Origin: Isosphaeraceae bacterium
Lineage (GTDB): Bacteria > Planctomycetota > Planctomycetia > Isosphaerales > Isosphaeraceae
Reading direction: 5' to 3'
DNA length: 64,000 nt
NCBI GenBank assembly: GCA_025356475.1
Contig: JANXSX010000221.1
Coordinates: forward strand, 1 to 64,000
Part shown: positions 30,616 to 37,017 of the stretch, piece by piece
How positions within the stretch are numbered: position 1 is the first letter of the stretch
Layout: each line of letters starts with the position of its first letter
Notes under the pieces: generated by a model
Databases searched by the model: none
What the model was told of the DNA's origin: nothing
What the model saw: the letters and a program-made list of their open reading frames with translations, nothing else
Translations under genes and position numbers: made by a program

Positions 30616-32283
30616 ATGTCGATCGCCCCATCCGCACCAAGGTGGTGTTTTCCCTTGTCGGTCGTGGCCTGCCTCGTCGGACTCGGACTGCTGGTCCATG
30701 GGGCTTGGCAAAGTTCAGCCACCTATGACGAGGTCGCCTATATCCGTGTCGCTGCACACTGGTGGCGTACTGGTGATCAAACCAGGATCACCCGGATGGG
30801 ATCCCCACTCACGTTCTGGAAGGTCCAACAAGCCCCTGTCCTCTGGTTGATCGATCGCGCTGGTTATGGGGCTTGGATCGATGACCCGACTCAATTTCTT
30901 CCAGATCTTCTGCCATGGCTCCGTGTTGGTGGGCTTTGGATTTGGGCGTTGGGACTGGGAATCACAGGCTGGTGGGCAAGACGGTTAGCGGGCCCGATCG
31001 CCATGACCTTGGCCTCATGGCTCTATGCACTCAGCCCGAACCTGATTGCCCATGGGGGTTTGGTCACCATGGAGCAACCCCTGACGACCGCCTGGGTGGG
31101 AGTCTGTTACCTGTTCTGGGAGTTCCTTGCACAGAAGGATTTCAAGTTCTTCATCGCTTCGGCGCTCCTCACCGGACTCACGTTCTCCTTAAAGTTCACC
31201 GCGATCTTATTACCGCCACTGCTCGGGCTAGCCTGGGTTGTTCAGCAATTCCGCCTTCGGACTAGCAGTCGGGAATTCGTCCGGCAAACGATCCAGTCGA
31301 TCGGTTTGATGGTGGTGTTCGTGTCACTCACGGTCATGGCGAACCTCGTGGTAACAGGCTTCGCAATGCTGCCGCCGAGTGAACGAACGAACAACCACCC
31401 AAGCCTTGGGGCTTCGAGTGGAGCTTTCTCAGCTCGCTGGATCGGGAGGCTGATCGAGACCCCAATGCCCCAGGATTGGGTTGGTTTCGCAATCCAGCTT
31501 CGACATCAGCGTTCGGGGGGGCCGTCGTTTCTGATGGGTGAGCGCCGAATGCATGGTTGGTGGTATTACTACTTTGTGGCCATGGCCGTGAAGGTTCCTC
31601 TTTGGTTCTGGCTTCTAGTCGCCGCCCGTTTTCTTTGTGGAAGGAAGGTGTCACTTCATAAGCACGCCAGCCTTCCACTGGTCGTGATCGTTGGGTTTCT
31701 GACGATTACAGCTCTGGGCTCGTCAAGGAACTACGGGGTCCGCTACCTGCTACCGCTCGCTCCTCTCGCAATTGTGTGGGTGTCCCAAATCGTCGAGGCC
31801 GGTCGCGCGTTTCGACTCCTCGCCGGGGTTGTCGCCGTTGGTTATGCCGGGGCAATCGCAACCACTCACCCACACGAGTTAACGTATTTCCCTGCGTGGG
31901 TTGGTGGTAAAACCCAAGGGAAAACATGGCTGGCAGACTCCAACTTCGATTGGGGCCAGGGAGCCCGGTCGTTGGCTCGGCTCCAGCGGCAGCAACCGGA
32001 ACTTCGCAGGTTGACCTTGTACATCTTCGGTGAGACAGATCCCCAACCCTTCGGAGTGGTTGGGATCGTCCATGTCGTCGACGCGGGTGAGGACCAAGCT
32101 CAAATCCCTGAAAAACTTCAGGCCGAGACCCCGTTTTTGGCGGTCTCGGCCTCGTTGGAAGTTGGGCTCTGGGGTCCACCGGGCTACTTCGCCTTGCTGA
32201 GAGGGATCAAGCCCGTGGCGATAACCGATGATGGCACCATTTCGGTCTACCGAACGACCGACCTGGCCGCCTTACCTAACTGA
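30616..32283 (+). CDS. Membrane glycosyltransferase, GT39/ArnT-like
   Basis: A 555-residue polytopic membrane protein of the family that transfers sugars from polyprenyl-phosphate donors to envelope acceptors. The first loop has the expected acidic pair near the first helix ([17 protein letters not shown]). At least ten hydrophobic segments follow ([45 protein letters not shown] and others). The C-terminus has a soluble region with [18 protein letters not shown]. Acceptor and donor are unknown. It lies 13 bases after the oxidoreductase gene, and its end overlaps the convergent SPFH gene by 8 bases. Confidence 0.8.
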
Positions 32284-33280
32284 GTTTCGCGCCACAACCG
32301 GAACAGAACTTGGGGTTGCCCGCGAGTGAGTTTCCACATTCGGAGCAGAACTTAGCCCCGAGTGCCGGTGTCGTGGGTGCTGTTAGCGGATGTGCTGGCG
32401 GGGTTGGGATGTTTGGGTTAGGCTGGATGGCCGGGGCTGCGTTCATCGCTTCGCGCATCATCCCTGGAATCATCATCCCAAATCCAGCTCCCATGCCGGC
32501 AGACATCGCCCCCGAGCCATCGCCTCCCGCCTGAGCGGCGTCGGTCATCGCTTTGGCAGCCTGAAACTTCATGAAGTCATTCATGTTGCCGATCGCTGAC
32601 ATTCCTGAACGGGCGTCCATCATCTTCTGGACTTCGTCTGGGGGAGTGATCCCCGCAATCAGCAGGTCCACGAGTTCCAGGCCGAGGCTCATGAAGTCCT
32701 CAGCGCACTTGCGTTTCGTCGTTGCCGCGACCTCGTCGTACTCGCTGGGCAAGTCGAGGATGGAGGTTAGGCCGGTTCCTAACACATCCGTGAGCCGGGA
32801 AACGATCCGGTCTCGGAGGTAGTCTTCAACCGCCTCGGTTGTGACTAAGCCCTGACTTCCTACGATCGTGGTCATGAATTTACGAGGGTCTGTTACCCGA
32901 AGGGCGAATTTGCCAAAGCTGCGGAGCCTAACGATCGACAGTTCCTTGTCGCGAAAGGCAATCGGCTGCTTCGTCCCCCACTTCAGGTCAATGAAGGTCT
33001 GAGTTGCGATGAAGTAGACTGAGGCTTGAAATGGGGATCGTTCCCACGGGATGGTCAGGATCCGCGTAAGAATGGGAACATTCAGGGTCGTAAGGGTATG
33101 CCTGCCGGGTCCGAACTCGTCGTAGACCTGTCCGCTCCGGAGGAACAGAGCACGCTGGTTCTCCTGAACGATCAGTTGGGCGCCGAGCTTGATATCAGCT
33201 TCGCCGTCTTGAGGAACTCGCTGGACGAGGGTGCGACCTGTGGGGTCAAAAAAGTCGATAACTTCAAGTCGAAGTCCCAT
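32276..33280 (-). CDS. SPFH-domain protein with C-terminal zinc ribbon
   Basis: Related to the SPFH/virion-core-protein (YdjL) group of membrane-organising proteins. The N-terminal half holds the SPFH-like domain ([36 protein letters not shown]). A helical region follows, then a Met/Gly/Ala/Pro-rich linker, and a C-terminal zinc ribbon with CSECGNSL and CSGCGAKL (four cysteines as CxxC-x11-CxxC type). No membrane helix is obvious, so association would be peripheral. It is translated after the zinc-ribbon protein gene at 33317, with a 36-base gap. Its stop overlaps the convergent glycosyltransferase. Confidence 0.85.
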
Positions 33281-33316: not shown

Positions 33317-33883
33317 TCAGTAAAGGTCAAGCCCGCGGGTCAAGCGATCTTCAAGGCGATCGGCGGCTTCAGCGATGCTTCGAATCAGCTTGCCAGCATC
33401 GAGATGTTCGACGAGTTCGCTGTCAACATTGTGGATCACGACGAAGTATTCTTCGCCGCGCAGGCTCTTGATAGCAAAATGGCCGTCGACGCTCCGGGCA
33501 TTTAAGAGGAGCAAACGACGAGCAGCGCGATCATCCGCAGGACCACAAACCGAGACCAATTCAAGGATGGCGCGACCGGTGTGATCGACTCCTCCACGTC
33601 CGAGATAGACCGCCTGGCGGCGGTCGAGTGGAAGGGGTACAACCACTCGCCAACCGTGCCCCGAGGGGCTCGCCTCGTAGCCAGATCGTTCGGCGAGTAG
33701 CCGGATGCCTCGACTAGGGTCGGGATCGTGAGGGTCAGGTGGTTCGTAAGGCCCAAGTGCTTCGCTTGCCGCGTCAGCATCCGGCTTCGCGGTTCCAAGC
33801 GGAAGCGCGCAGACGAGACAGAATCGGTTGCTCGGCGAATTCCAAGTAGCGCATCGAGCGCAAGCAAGTTCGTGATACGACAT
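33317..33883 (-). CDS. Zinc-ribbon protein with a C-terminal chaperone-like domain
   Basis: A 188-residue protein from ATG 33883. The N-terminus has a zinc ribbon: CARCATWN and CLVCALPLG. An acidic/Pro linker follows. The second half (from about residue 70) is a mixed alpha/beta domain with WRVVVPLPLDRRQAVYLG, ILELVSVCGPAD and FVVIHNVDSEL, ending in a helix. The strand pattern is reminiscent of YbjN/type III chaperone-like domains, but this is an impression only. It is probably co-transcribed with the SPFH gene downstream and is divergent from the large kinase gene, which also starts with a zinc ribbon. Confidence 0.7.
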   Translation of the reverse strand: MSYHELACARCATWNSPSNRFCLVCALPLGTAKPDADAASEALGPYEPPDPHDPDPSRGIRLLAERSGYEASPSGHGWRVVVPLPLDRRQAVYLGRGGVDHTGRAILELVSVCGPADDRAARRLLLLNARSVDGHFAIKSLRGEEYFVVIHNVDSELVEHLDAGKLIRSIAEAADRLEDRLTRGLDLY

Positions 33884-34254
33884 GGCCAGACGTCTCGGGG
33901 TCGGAAGCCTGGTATTTCGATAACTGATTCTACCTGGAGGGCCGACCACGGCGAAACAAACGACTCAACCGAATTTCCACAATCGAGGTGCGCGGGTAGA
34001 CTAGGAAGCTACGTCCACCATCAGGTCAATTCCTGGCAACAACTGGTGGGTGGGCGTCCCCGAGACTTCGTGACTCGGTCCTTGAAGTTTTTACCGTTCG
34101 ACGAGTTCGTTCGACAGGCTGGTTTAGGGCTGAAAGCGTACGTGAGACCTTACGCGCCGGCCCACCTCCGTAATATGTTGCGATTCCCATATAACGCGAG
34201 GCCTGAGTCGGCATCGCCGCAGGTTTCCGCTTTAACGATCCGAGTGAATCGACC
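33884..34254. other. Intergenic region between divergent zinc-ribbon and kinase genes
   Basis: About 370 bases with no coding frame I would support. A TATAAC at 34190-34195 could be a -10 for the kinase gene, but no matching -35 was found. It probably carries promoters for both directions. Confidence 0.4.
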
Positions 34255-37017
34255 ATGACCGAGAGCTGCACCCGATGTGCCCGGTCGATCGAATACCTAG
34301 GCGAAGCCCCCTCATTCTGTATGTACTGTGGTCATCCGCTCAGCGACTCAACACTGCTGAAGGATTTGTCGATCGATTACCAGCAACACGTCGACGATAC
34401 CTTCGCTGAGCCGTCTAACCATGTCGGCCCAGGAATGATTCCGGTCTCCGTCGGTGGGTTCCGACTCCTTCGGAAGCTGGGTGAGGGGGGCATGGGCTCC
34501 GTTCACGAGGGTGAAGATCCTGTCACTGGACGAAGAGTGGCGGTCAAACTGATTTCGCCTCACCTATTAGGCTCTCAGGTCTCAGTCGAGAGGTTCCTCC
34601 AGGAGGGACGCCTGGCAAGCGCGATCTCGCACCCGAGATGTGTTTTTGTACTCGGTGCGGATGAAGAACAGGGGCGACCCTATATCATCATGGAGTTAAT
34701 GCCAGGATCGACCTTGAAAGACCTGGTCACGAATGTCGGCCCGCTCCCCGTGGAACAAGCAGTCGCAAAGATTCTCGACGTGATTGATGGACTTAGGGAA
34801 GCCCACCGGATGGGTGTGCTTCATCGCGACGTCAAGCCCTCAAACTGCTTCGTTGAGGCGGATGGTCGAGTGAAAATTGGCGACTTCGGGCTCTCGAAGT
34901 CGCTCTCGGGCGACATGAACTTGACCAGGACCGGCTCGTTCCTTGGGACACCTCTGTACGCCGCTCCTGAACAGATCCGGGGCGAGGATCTCGACGGTCG
35001 CGCGGATGTCTATTCAGCGACGGCGACTTTGTATTTTCTTCTTTGCGGCAGAGCGCCTTTCGAGGGGGGGAATGCCGAGTCGACTCTGGCCAAGATCGTC
35101 AGTGAGCCGGCCCCCTCGGTCCGTGTGCTGATCCCGGAGATACCTCGAGCACTCGACGCGGTCCTGCTCAAAGGCTTGGAACGAAACCGGGATCGACGGT
35201 GGCGAGATCTCGATGAACTTTCCGAAGCACTCCTTCCTTTCGTCCCCAGTCGCCTGTCAATTAGTGGAGTCGGTATTCGCCTACTTGCATTTATGGGTGA
35301 TATTATAATCACTCGATTTTTTGCCCTCGCATTGTTTCATGGGATTACGTATTACTCAACCGGCAAGACTGCTCCACCTCTTGAAAGTTTGCTTGTGACG
35401 ACCGTTTTCGATCTGATGATCTGGATCGGCTACTTCGTCGTTGCGGAGGGACTCACAGGCAGCTCCCCGTTCAAATACTTCATGCGGATGAAGGTCTACT
35501 GTGCAGGCAGGGCATCGATCCCAGGCGTGAAGCGGTCCCTGGCTCGAACAGCGATTCTCTACGCGATTATCGATCTACCAGTCACGATATTCTCGATTTA
35601 CACGCTTTGGACTGCTGGCAGACCCATGTTCTTGGCCACGGTTGTCGCACGCGTCGTTGGGATCGCATTCATTTGCTCGACCATGCGTGCTTCGAACGAC
35701 TACCGGGGTCTCCACGAGATCTTGAGTGGGACGCGGGTGGTTCGGCTCCCGAGCAAGAGGTCACTCACCTCCAATGGCCTCGGTCGTTGGCCACGTCGCG
35801 AGTGGGCACTCTCTCGGCCTTCGGAAATGCCAATGACTCTGGGCAGCTACACGGTTGAGGGAGCAATCCGCTGGGATGATCAGATTTGCATCCTCCAGGC
35901 TATCGACCCCGGACTTCACCGGCGAGCCTGGATCTTGCTTGGGCGGGTCGAGGAAGAAATCCTTTCTCCCGAACGTCGTGAAACCGATCGACTCACCCGA
36001 CCACGCTGGCTTGCTGCGGGTCAATGGCAGGACTGGCGCTGGGATGCCTTTGTCGCACCCGTAGGTCGACCGTTAGTCGATCTGGTCAACCCCAAGAATC
36101 CGCTCAACTGGGCGGAGAGTCGCCGAGTGCTCGAAGCACTTACCGAAGAGCTCATCGAGTCGATCGCGACGAACTCGCTCCCCTCGAGCCTTAGCACAAG
36201 TCAGGTGTTTGTTCAGCCTGACAGCCAAATCCAACTGCTCGACGCTGACCCGACGAATTCCTCAGAGCGTGTCACCTCAGTAGGCGATCCTCAATCTCGC
36301 GCCCTGAGCCTTGTGCATTCAGTCGCGATCCTCAGCTTGACAGGTAGGCAACTGAATCCGGTTGAAAATCCCCGAATCCTTGGTTCAATTCCGATCCATG
36401 CTCGAAGAATTCTCGATCGTCTCCGCCCTGGAGTGAGAAGCTACGCGAATATTGAGGCCATTCGGATGGATCTCGATTCCACGCGCAACTTGCCCTGCCA
36501 ACTCACCATTACGACCCGATACATCCGTGCCGGAATCTTTCTTGCCAAGCTGATCATCTCGATAGGGGCTGCCTCGGTCCCGGTCGGCCTTGCGATCACC
36601 GCAAAGGCAATGACCTCGTTCGATAACGGACCGGAAGACAAGTATCTTTATGACATGATTGAAAACTCAGTCACGCGATATGTATCGGTCCTTCCACTGG
36701 TGATTCCACTCATCTGGATGGCCTGGGCGATGGCGACTCGGGGGGGATTGACCCGGCCCCTGCTTGGGCTCACCCTCGCTAGGCCGGATGGCTCGCCGGT
36801 CAGTGGACTGCGGTGCTTTGTTCGGGAGGGGATTCTCTGGGGATTTGTGGCGATCGTCCTTCGACTGAGTCTTTGGAATTACATTTCAAAGAGTCCTCTC
36901 TCGATTGCCCCGGAATGGTGCTTTTGCCTGTTAATCCTCTATGCGATCTGGGGAATCCTCTCGGGGCGACGTATGCCGCACGAGTGGATTTCAGGAACAA
37001 TCGTTGTGCCCAAGTAG
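34255..37017 (+). CDS. Ser/Thr kinase with duplicated kinase-RDD architecture (second kinase degenerate)
   Basis: A 920-residue protein in five parts. (1) Zinc ribbon, residues 5-25 (CTRC...CMYC). (2) A Hanks-type kinase, about 67-330, with the Gly loop KLGEGGMGSVHEG, K98, the HRDVKPSN loop (H190/D192), the DFG Asp D210 and APEQ, so apparently active. (3) An RDD-type membrane domain, about 338-505, with RLLAFMGDIII and, at its end, HEILSGTRVV. (4) A second kinase-like domain, about 525-750, that lacks a Gly-rich loop, a lysine at the ATP site, an HRD loop and DFG (LLDAD in its place). (5) A second RDD-like region from about 755 to the end, whose HEWISGTIVV matches the first. It is probably a membrane-anchored signalling protein with kinase facing the cytoplasm. 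A stem-loop follows the gene. Confidence 0.85.
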   Translation: MTESCTRCARSIEYLGEAPSFCMYCGHPLSDSTLLKDLSIDYQQHVDDTFAEPSNHVGPGMIPVSVGGFRLLRKLGEGGMGSVHEGEDPVTGRRVAVKLISPHLLGSQVSVERFLQEGRLASAISHPRCVFVLGADEEQGRPYIIMELMPGSTLKDLVTNVGPLPVEQAVAKILDVIDGLREAHRMGVLHRDVKPSNCFVEADGRVKIGDFGLSKSLSGDMNLTRTGSFLGTPLYAAPEQIRGEDLDGRADVYSATATLYFLLCGRAPFEGGNAESTLAKIVSEPAPSVRVLIPEIPRALDAVLLKGLERNRDRRWRDLDELSEALLPFVPSRLSISGVGIRLLAFMGDIIITRFFALALFHGITYYSTGKTAPPLESLLVTTVFDLMIWIGYFVVAEGLTGSSPFKYFMRMKVYCAGRASIPGVKRSLARTAILYAIIDLPVTIFSIYTLWTAGRPMFLATVVARVVGIAFICSTMRASNDYRGLHEILSGTRVVRLPSKRSLTSNGLGRWPRREWALSRPSEMPMTLGSYTVEGAIRWDDQICILQAIDPGLHRRAWILLGRVEEEILSPERRETDRLTRPRWLAAGQWQDWRWDAFVAPVGRPLVDLVNPKNPLNWAESRRVLEALTEELIESIATNSLPSSLSTSQVFVQPDSQIQLLDADPTNSSERVTSVGDPQSRALSLVHSVAILSLTGRQLNPVENPRILGSIPIHARRILDRLRPGVRSYANIEAIRMDLDSTRNLPCQLTITTRYIRAGIFLAKLIISIGAASVPVGLAITAKAMTSFDNGPEDKYLYDMIENSVTRYVSVLPLVIPLIWMAWAMATRGGLTRPLLGLTLARPDGSPVSGLRCFVREGILWGFVAIVLRLSLWNYISKSPLSIAPEWCFCLLILYAIWGILSGRRMPHEWISGTIVVPK

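Follow-up and report, generated by a model that had tools for sequence, protein, structure and literature searches.

A planctomycete protein kinase with a repeated kinase-RDD module and a predicted pseudokinase in its second half

In the window analyzed here, a stretch of 64,000 nucleotides of Isosphaeraceae DNA, the gene at positions 34255 to 37017 of the plus strand encodes a 920-residue protein in which a zinc ribbon is followed by an active-type Ser/Thr kinase (K1), a membrane domain of the RDD family (RDD1), a pseudokinase (K2), and a second, diverged RDD-like domain (RDD2). The two kinase-RDD halves are homologous to each other, the arrangement is conserved across dozens of genera, and K2 has lost most of the residues on which catalysis by K1 would depend while being kept under purifying selection.

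Domain plan and homology of the two halves

The open reading frame starts with ATG, is free of stops, and has full-length relatives in other genera. Coding on the minus strand of the same interval was ruled out, as stops occurred throughout. The zinc ribbon (34267 to 34329, plus strand, as are all domains of the gene) was recognized by the conservation of C5, C8, C22, and C25, all four of which were invariant in 11 of 11 sequences and present in 58 to 61 of the 67 sequences of a larger alignment. K1 (residues ~66 to 332; 34450 to 35250) was assigned by a residue tally and by the Pfam Pkinase model, which matched residues 70 to 292 (E = 7.7e-43), and RDD1 (residues ~336 to 500; 35260 to 35754) by hydropathy, by conservation (A345, D349, K407, and H487 are kept), and by the Pfam RDD model at residues 338 to 490 (E = 2e-10; 41.5 bits against a gathering score of 24.1). 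When the whole protein was searched, residues 525 to 755 had no Pfam match; residues 756 to 920, searched by themselves, matched RDD and no other family, at 21.2 to 21.4 bits (E = 3.4e-4), just below the gathering score. K2 (residues ~526 to 750; 35830 to 36504) was delimited by hhalign against K1, by its profile match to the PDB, and by its AlphaFold2 fold, and RDD2 (residues ~752 to 920; 36508 to 37014) by the Pfam RDD matches of its relatives, by hhalign against RDD1, and by models. Profiles and fold together bore out the five-part plan of zinc ribbon, kinase, RDD, kinase-like, and RDD-like domains that had been read from the letters.

Profiles of the two halves were built from 67 rows, excluding the frame-broken copies L072 and L118 and the contig-end fragment L116. 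When half 1 (residues 62 to 503) was compared with half 2 (residues 520 to 920) by hhalign, the alignment covered 380 columns at a probability of 99.5% (E = 5.8e-23). The kinase domains alone gave an E value of 1.7e-15 and the RDD domains alone one of 1.4e-10, with which separately built alignments agreed (4.3e-7), and the negative control, K2 against RDD2, gave no match (probability, 0.15%). In most relatives, the second-half profile also picked up half 1 of the protein itself, often across kinase and RDD. The sequence-only reading had proposed a repeated kinase-RDD module, and both the alignment of the halves and the fold upheld it.

RDD2 had a Pfam RDD match of its own in 20 of 34 relatives (E up to 0.01; best, 1.9e-8), and no other Pfam family recurred among the 34 second RDD domains. 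Its suspected RDD nature was further supported by an order of helices and strands alike in both RDD domains of the full-length AlphaFold2 model, which was the weaker of the two models made (pLDDT, 69.5; pTM, 0.50). Within RDD1, the Asp of the first transmembrane segment (TM1) and K407 were each conserved in 66 of 67 sequences. Of the Arg and the two Asp residues characteristic of the RDD family, RDD2 conserves the Arg (R755; 66/67) and, near its C terminus, the second Asp position (65/67), while the TM1 Asp is lost; this terminal, HD-type position is Asp or Glu in RDD1 and RDD2 alike. Since hydropathy gave four hydrophobic segments in each RDD domain, the zinc ribbon, K1, and K2 would all face the same compartment, presumably the cytoplasm.

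Fold and lost catalytic residues of the second kinase

In an AlphaFold2 model of residues 515 to 920 made with eight sequences (pLDDT, 78.5), K2 adopted a PknB-like kinase fold. The PknB structures of Staphylococcus aureus and Mycobacterium tuberculosis came out on top in Foldseek (E = 1.5e-7), and VIA-align 2 superposed the K2 model on PknB over 218 residues (Z = 14.2; rmsd, 6.4), as the earlier assignment of residues 525 to 755 to a kinase-like domain had predicted. Searched against the PDB, the K2 profile matched PknA at 7.8e-8, and every match with an E value of <0.005 was a bacterial Ser/Thr kinase; the neighbors ranking first in the PDB and Foldseek searches were PknA, PknE, StkP, and PknB. 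No Pfam kinase model matched any of 34 K2 sequences, so ordinary annotation overlooks K2, and surveys of bacterial kinomes probably record fewer of these tandem kinases than exist.

The Gly loop, VAIK Lys (K98), alpha-C Glu (E117), HRD motif (residues 190 to 192), catalytic Asn (N197), and DFG motif (residues 210 to 212) that define Ser/Thr kinases (PF00069) are all present in K1, and its catalytic residues were found in 67 of 67 sequences with the exception of one DFG Phe replaced by Tyr. Because these motifs are intact, K1, already described as active-looking, is predicted to be a catalytic Ser/Thr kinase.

In K2, the residues equivalent to the VAIK Lys, HRD Asp, catalytic Asn, and DFG Asp are L561, S645, Q650, and D663. 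The HRD Asp was found in 0 of 67 K2 sequences and the Gly loop is absent; Lys occupied the VAIK position in two sequences (L073 and L109), with Trp, Val, Arg, or Leu as substitutes elsewhere, and Asn was kept at the catalytic position in 2 of 67. The sequence-only reading had all of the Gly loop, ATP-binding Lys, HRD, and DFG missing. This was correct for the first three, but hhalign and the alignment both place the Asp of LLDAD on the DFG Asp, a position that is Asp in 51 of 67 sequences and Glu in 10 of 67, followed by Phe in 30 of 67. The region reads mostly LLDF in the neighboring family of the class and mostly LVDP in the family of the window. With a kinase fold and with the VAIK Lys and HRD Asp lost, K2 classifies as a pseudokinase, and the protein would accordingly belong, as judged from its sequence, to the tandem proteins that carry an active-type kinase and a pseudokinase on a single chain.

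The K2 model retains the strand order of the N lobe, with a helix of just four residues between beta3 and beta4; ~15 residues separate LLD from the following helix, and the C lobe has fewer helices than that of K1. These features suggest that two helices, alpha-C and alpha-G, are missing from K2 along with most of the activation segment. Because these modelled elements as well as the HRD Asp, ATP Lys, and Gly loop are absent, K2 should not phosphorylate substrates, and it would probably not bind ATP in the usual mode.

Other positions of K2 are highly conserved, namely G530, D551, L554, R556, R579, R582, R584, G604, and W619, with R556, G604, and W619 found in 67 of 67 sequences. D551, L554, and R556 (66, 65, and 67 of 67, respectively) form a D-x-x-L-x-R motif in the beta2-beta3 turn that aligns with D-n-r-L-g-R of PknA, while K1 mostly carries Ser or Thr at the Leu position (47/67). 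We take the position of L554 to be that of PknB L33, a residue of the back-to-back dimer; L33 mutants are named in the titles of PDB entries among the PknB-type matches. The motif is widespread in bacterial kinases, and its conservation may be purely structural.

Distribution, descent, and genomic surroundings

When 40 related genomes were searched, six further genera within the family yielded full-length relatives (41 to 47% identity), and partial-length matches in four more genomes extended to whole proteins with an identical plan. Named carriers include Paludisphaera soli, Tautonia sociabilis, and metagenome-assembled genomes labelled Isosphaeraceae. Within the family, 19 of 45 genomes had a match to the second-half profile (E < 1e-100); within the class, 62 of 298 did so among the matches listed (E < 1e-25), and in a phylum-wide sample, 10 of 392, the window's own counted (E of 1e-16 or better). 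The layout also occurs in scattered genomes of other classes. When the open reading frames around these matches were inspected, the first half preceded the second in nearly all.

A kinase tree was built from 24 K1 domains, 24 K2 domains, 10 kinases of single-module kinase-RDD proteins, and 12 other kinases. K1 formed one clade and K2 another (SH-aLRT, 99 each), which argues that the arrangement is old and has been inherited as a unit. The two clades were not sisters, and the nearest relative of the long-branched K2 could not be placed. The tree therefore cannot tell whether K2 derives from K1 or from another kinase, and it favors neither duplication nor fusion. That a separate kinase-RDD protein was fused to the first unit, in place of an internal duplication, is a serious contender, if somewhat short of an even chance, and it is compatible with the functional explanation that we prefer. 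Single-module kinase-RDD proteins are present in the phylum, K1 and K2 are not sister clades, and plant tandem kinases arose by both routes (PMC6170490); however, duplication is the simplest source of a kinase-RDD order that occurs twice, and the K2 branch is too long for the tree to lend fusion any preference.

The single-module proteins (L146, L149, L159, and others) were found elsewhere in the phylum. They were rejected as direct ancestors because their kinases fall outside the K1 group, and since they do not group with K1, fusion of a kinase to an RDD domain may have occurred more than once.

The gene is surrounded by genes for a Band_7/zinc-ribbon protein, a zinc-ribbon protein of no assigned family, a 3-keto-disaccharide hydrolase, and ThuA. 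The zinc-ribbon gene (33317 to 33895, minus strand) is divergent, encodes 192 amino acids without a Pfam, NCBIfam, or PADLOC match, and adjoins the kinase gene in several related genera. The SPFH/Band_7 protein (32276 to 33280, minus strand) has a C-terminal zinc ribbon and is encoded near the kinase in L068 too. Comparison of the neighborhoods of relatives revealed no conserved operon partner pointing to a pathway, and an operon-based assignment of function was discarded, as the neighbors lie mostly on the opposite strand and are conserved in only part of the family.

Candidate roles and comparison with known systems

Two natural variants bear on the role of K2. In one relative (L145, 1393 to 3018 of G570:C58; a frame of 549 amino acids), K1 is joined directly to K2 and both RDD domains are absent; the contig stops ~130 bases beyond the stop codon. 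In another (L208, G671:C43, 455 to 2783 in minus-strand coordinates; 776 amino acids), RDD1 is lost and RDD2 is kept. Contig ends and frame-broken copies aside, no intact K2 protein without K1 was found in the profile-screened frames. In L072 (G052), L118 (G297), and L204 (G733), the reading frame shifts within RDD1 or shortly behind it and so separates K1-RDD1 from K2-RDD2; these copies may reflect sequencing error, decay, or a real split. The link between K1 and K2 thus appears more essential than the RDD domains, as judged from two draft genomes only, and its retention despite RDD loss offers the strongest argument that the partner of K2 is K1 and not just the membrane part.

On balance, we lean toward a multi-pass membrane kinase in which the noncatalytic K2 is a built-in scaffold, dimerization partner, or allosteric partner of K1. 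K2 would act in cis or in trans as a fixed scaffold that holds K1 in its active arrangement or out of it. Alternatively, K2 could pair with the K2 of a second copy and so bring two K1 domains together for trans-autophosphorylation, an idea that derives from the conserved D-x-x-L-x-R motif and its Leu. The RDD pair would anchor the complex and may relay the state of the membrane or of ions. A regulatory role of K2, its dimerization, the topology, and an input signal are what we infer here, and K2 might likewise be the allosteric sensor that was first proposed. Doubtful, though worth stating, is a JAK-like scheme in which the fused K2 gates K1, possibly through N-lobe K2-K2 pairing, and is fed by a twin-RDD sensor or ion transporter.

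Two other roles seem improbable to about the same degree. K2 could have another activity or bind a nucleotide or other ligand through its retained DFG Asp in the manner of SelO or SidJ, which offer precedents (PMC12599244); the Asp or Glu at this position might permit binding of a metal or ligand, and the trio of R579, R582, and R584 is conserved together with W596, but the scarcity of the ATP Lys and the absence of the Gly loop speak against it. The second module could also serve mainly in anchoring or transport, RDD1 and RDD2 forming an ion antiporter under K1 with K2 as a spacer. The Halobacillus RDD protein is an Na+(Li+,K+)/H+ antiporter that needs its terminal, HD-type Asp and not its TM1 Asp (PMC5996927), and both RDD domains have Asp or Glu at the former position; however, RDD2 lacks the TM1 Asp, and K1-K2 persists without RDD1 or without either RDD domain. 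That K2-RDD2 is a functionless, decaying leftover of duplication, as its lost catalytic residues and invisibility to Pfam might suggest, is very improbable and largely refuted by its presence in nearly every full-length relative, its single clade, its invariant residues, and its dN/dS, which in 12 nearby pairs was ~0.01 to 0.44 (K1, 0 to 0.27; RDD1, 0.05 to 0.54; RDD2, 0.08 to 0.55), far below 1 and usually no higher than that of RDD1, so that K2 is constrained.

The sequence-only reading knew of no description of such a protein, and our search of the open-access literature likewise found none of an RDD-kinase or of a planctomycete tandem kinase-pseudokinase. RDD domains, planctomycetes, and tandem pairs are all absent from a recent review of pseudokinases in bacteria, and the main text of a paper on planctomycete kinomes mentions neither RDD domains nor pseudokinases. 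The separate ingredients are all of known kinds; it is their combination for which we found no description in the open literature. Pseudokinases of bacteria have received little study (PMC12599244). A kinase fused to a pseudokinase, with natural variants that have lost RDD1 or both RDD domains, offers a clean system in which to test pseudokinase control outside eukaryotes.

Among known systems, K1 is a complete member of the PknA/PknB-type Ser/Thr kinases (PF00069) and K2 shares their fold, but here there are no PASTA domains, K2 lacks catalytic residues, and RDD domains replace the single helix; NF033483, the model for PknB PASTA kinases, scored 258.9 bits, in the kinase domain only, against a cutoff of 450. 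An anti-phage kinase reading (PADLOC PD-T4-6, mad6) was set aside, as the matches cover only the K1 kinase domain and are expected for any Hanks-type kinase. Of the two membrane domains, RDD1 belongs to the RDD family (PF06271) by its Pfam score and RDD2 is probably a diverged member of this family, which includes the Halobacillus protein and Bacillus subtilis SppI, an RDD protein able to regulate a partner within a membrane complex (PMC7568657). In contrast to the present protein, no known RDD protein is reported as fused to a kinase in the open-access papers found, and RDD2 differs from them in lacking the TM1 Asp.

K2 is akin to the pseudokinases of MviN (ActPs3) and EssB/YukC, which are noncatalytic dimerizing scaffolds, in its motif-less kinase fold, short activation loop, and membrane linkage; a transmembrane region after the kinase and an activation-loop deletion are shared with ActPs3, as compared by description only (PMC12599244). 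Unlike these, K2 is fused to an active-type kinase, follows a first kinase-RDD unit, and has no relation to the MviN flippase or type VII secretion. In GLW pseudokinases, GLW replaces HRD (PMC12599244); K2 has P-x-x at this position and no GLW. Janus kinases and the plant proteins WTK1/Yr15 and RPG1 likewise combine a kinase and a pseudokinase in a single polypeptide (PMC6170490), which the present protein resembles in plan, descent not being implied. In Janus kinases the pseudokinase comes first, whereas here the active-type kinase does, and two RDD domains would embed this bacterial protein in the membrane.
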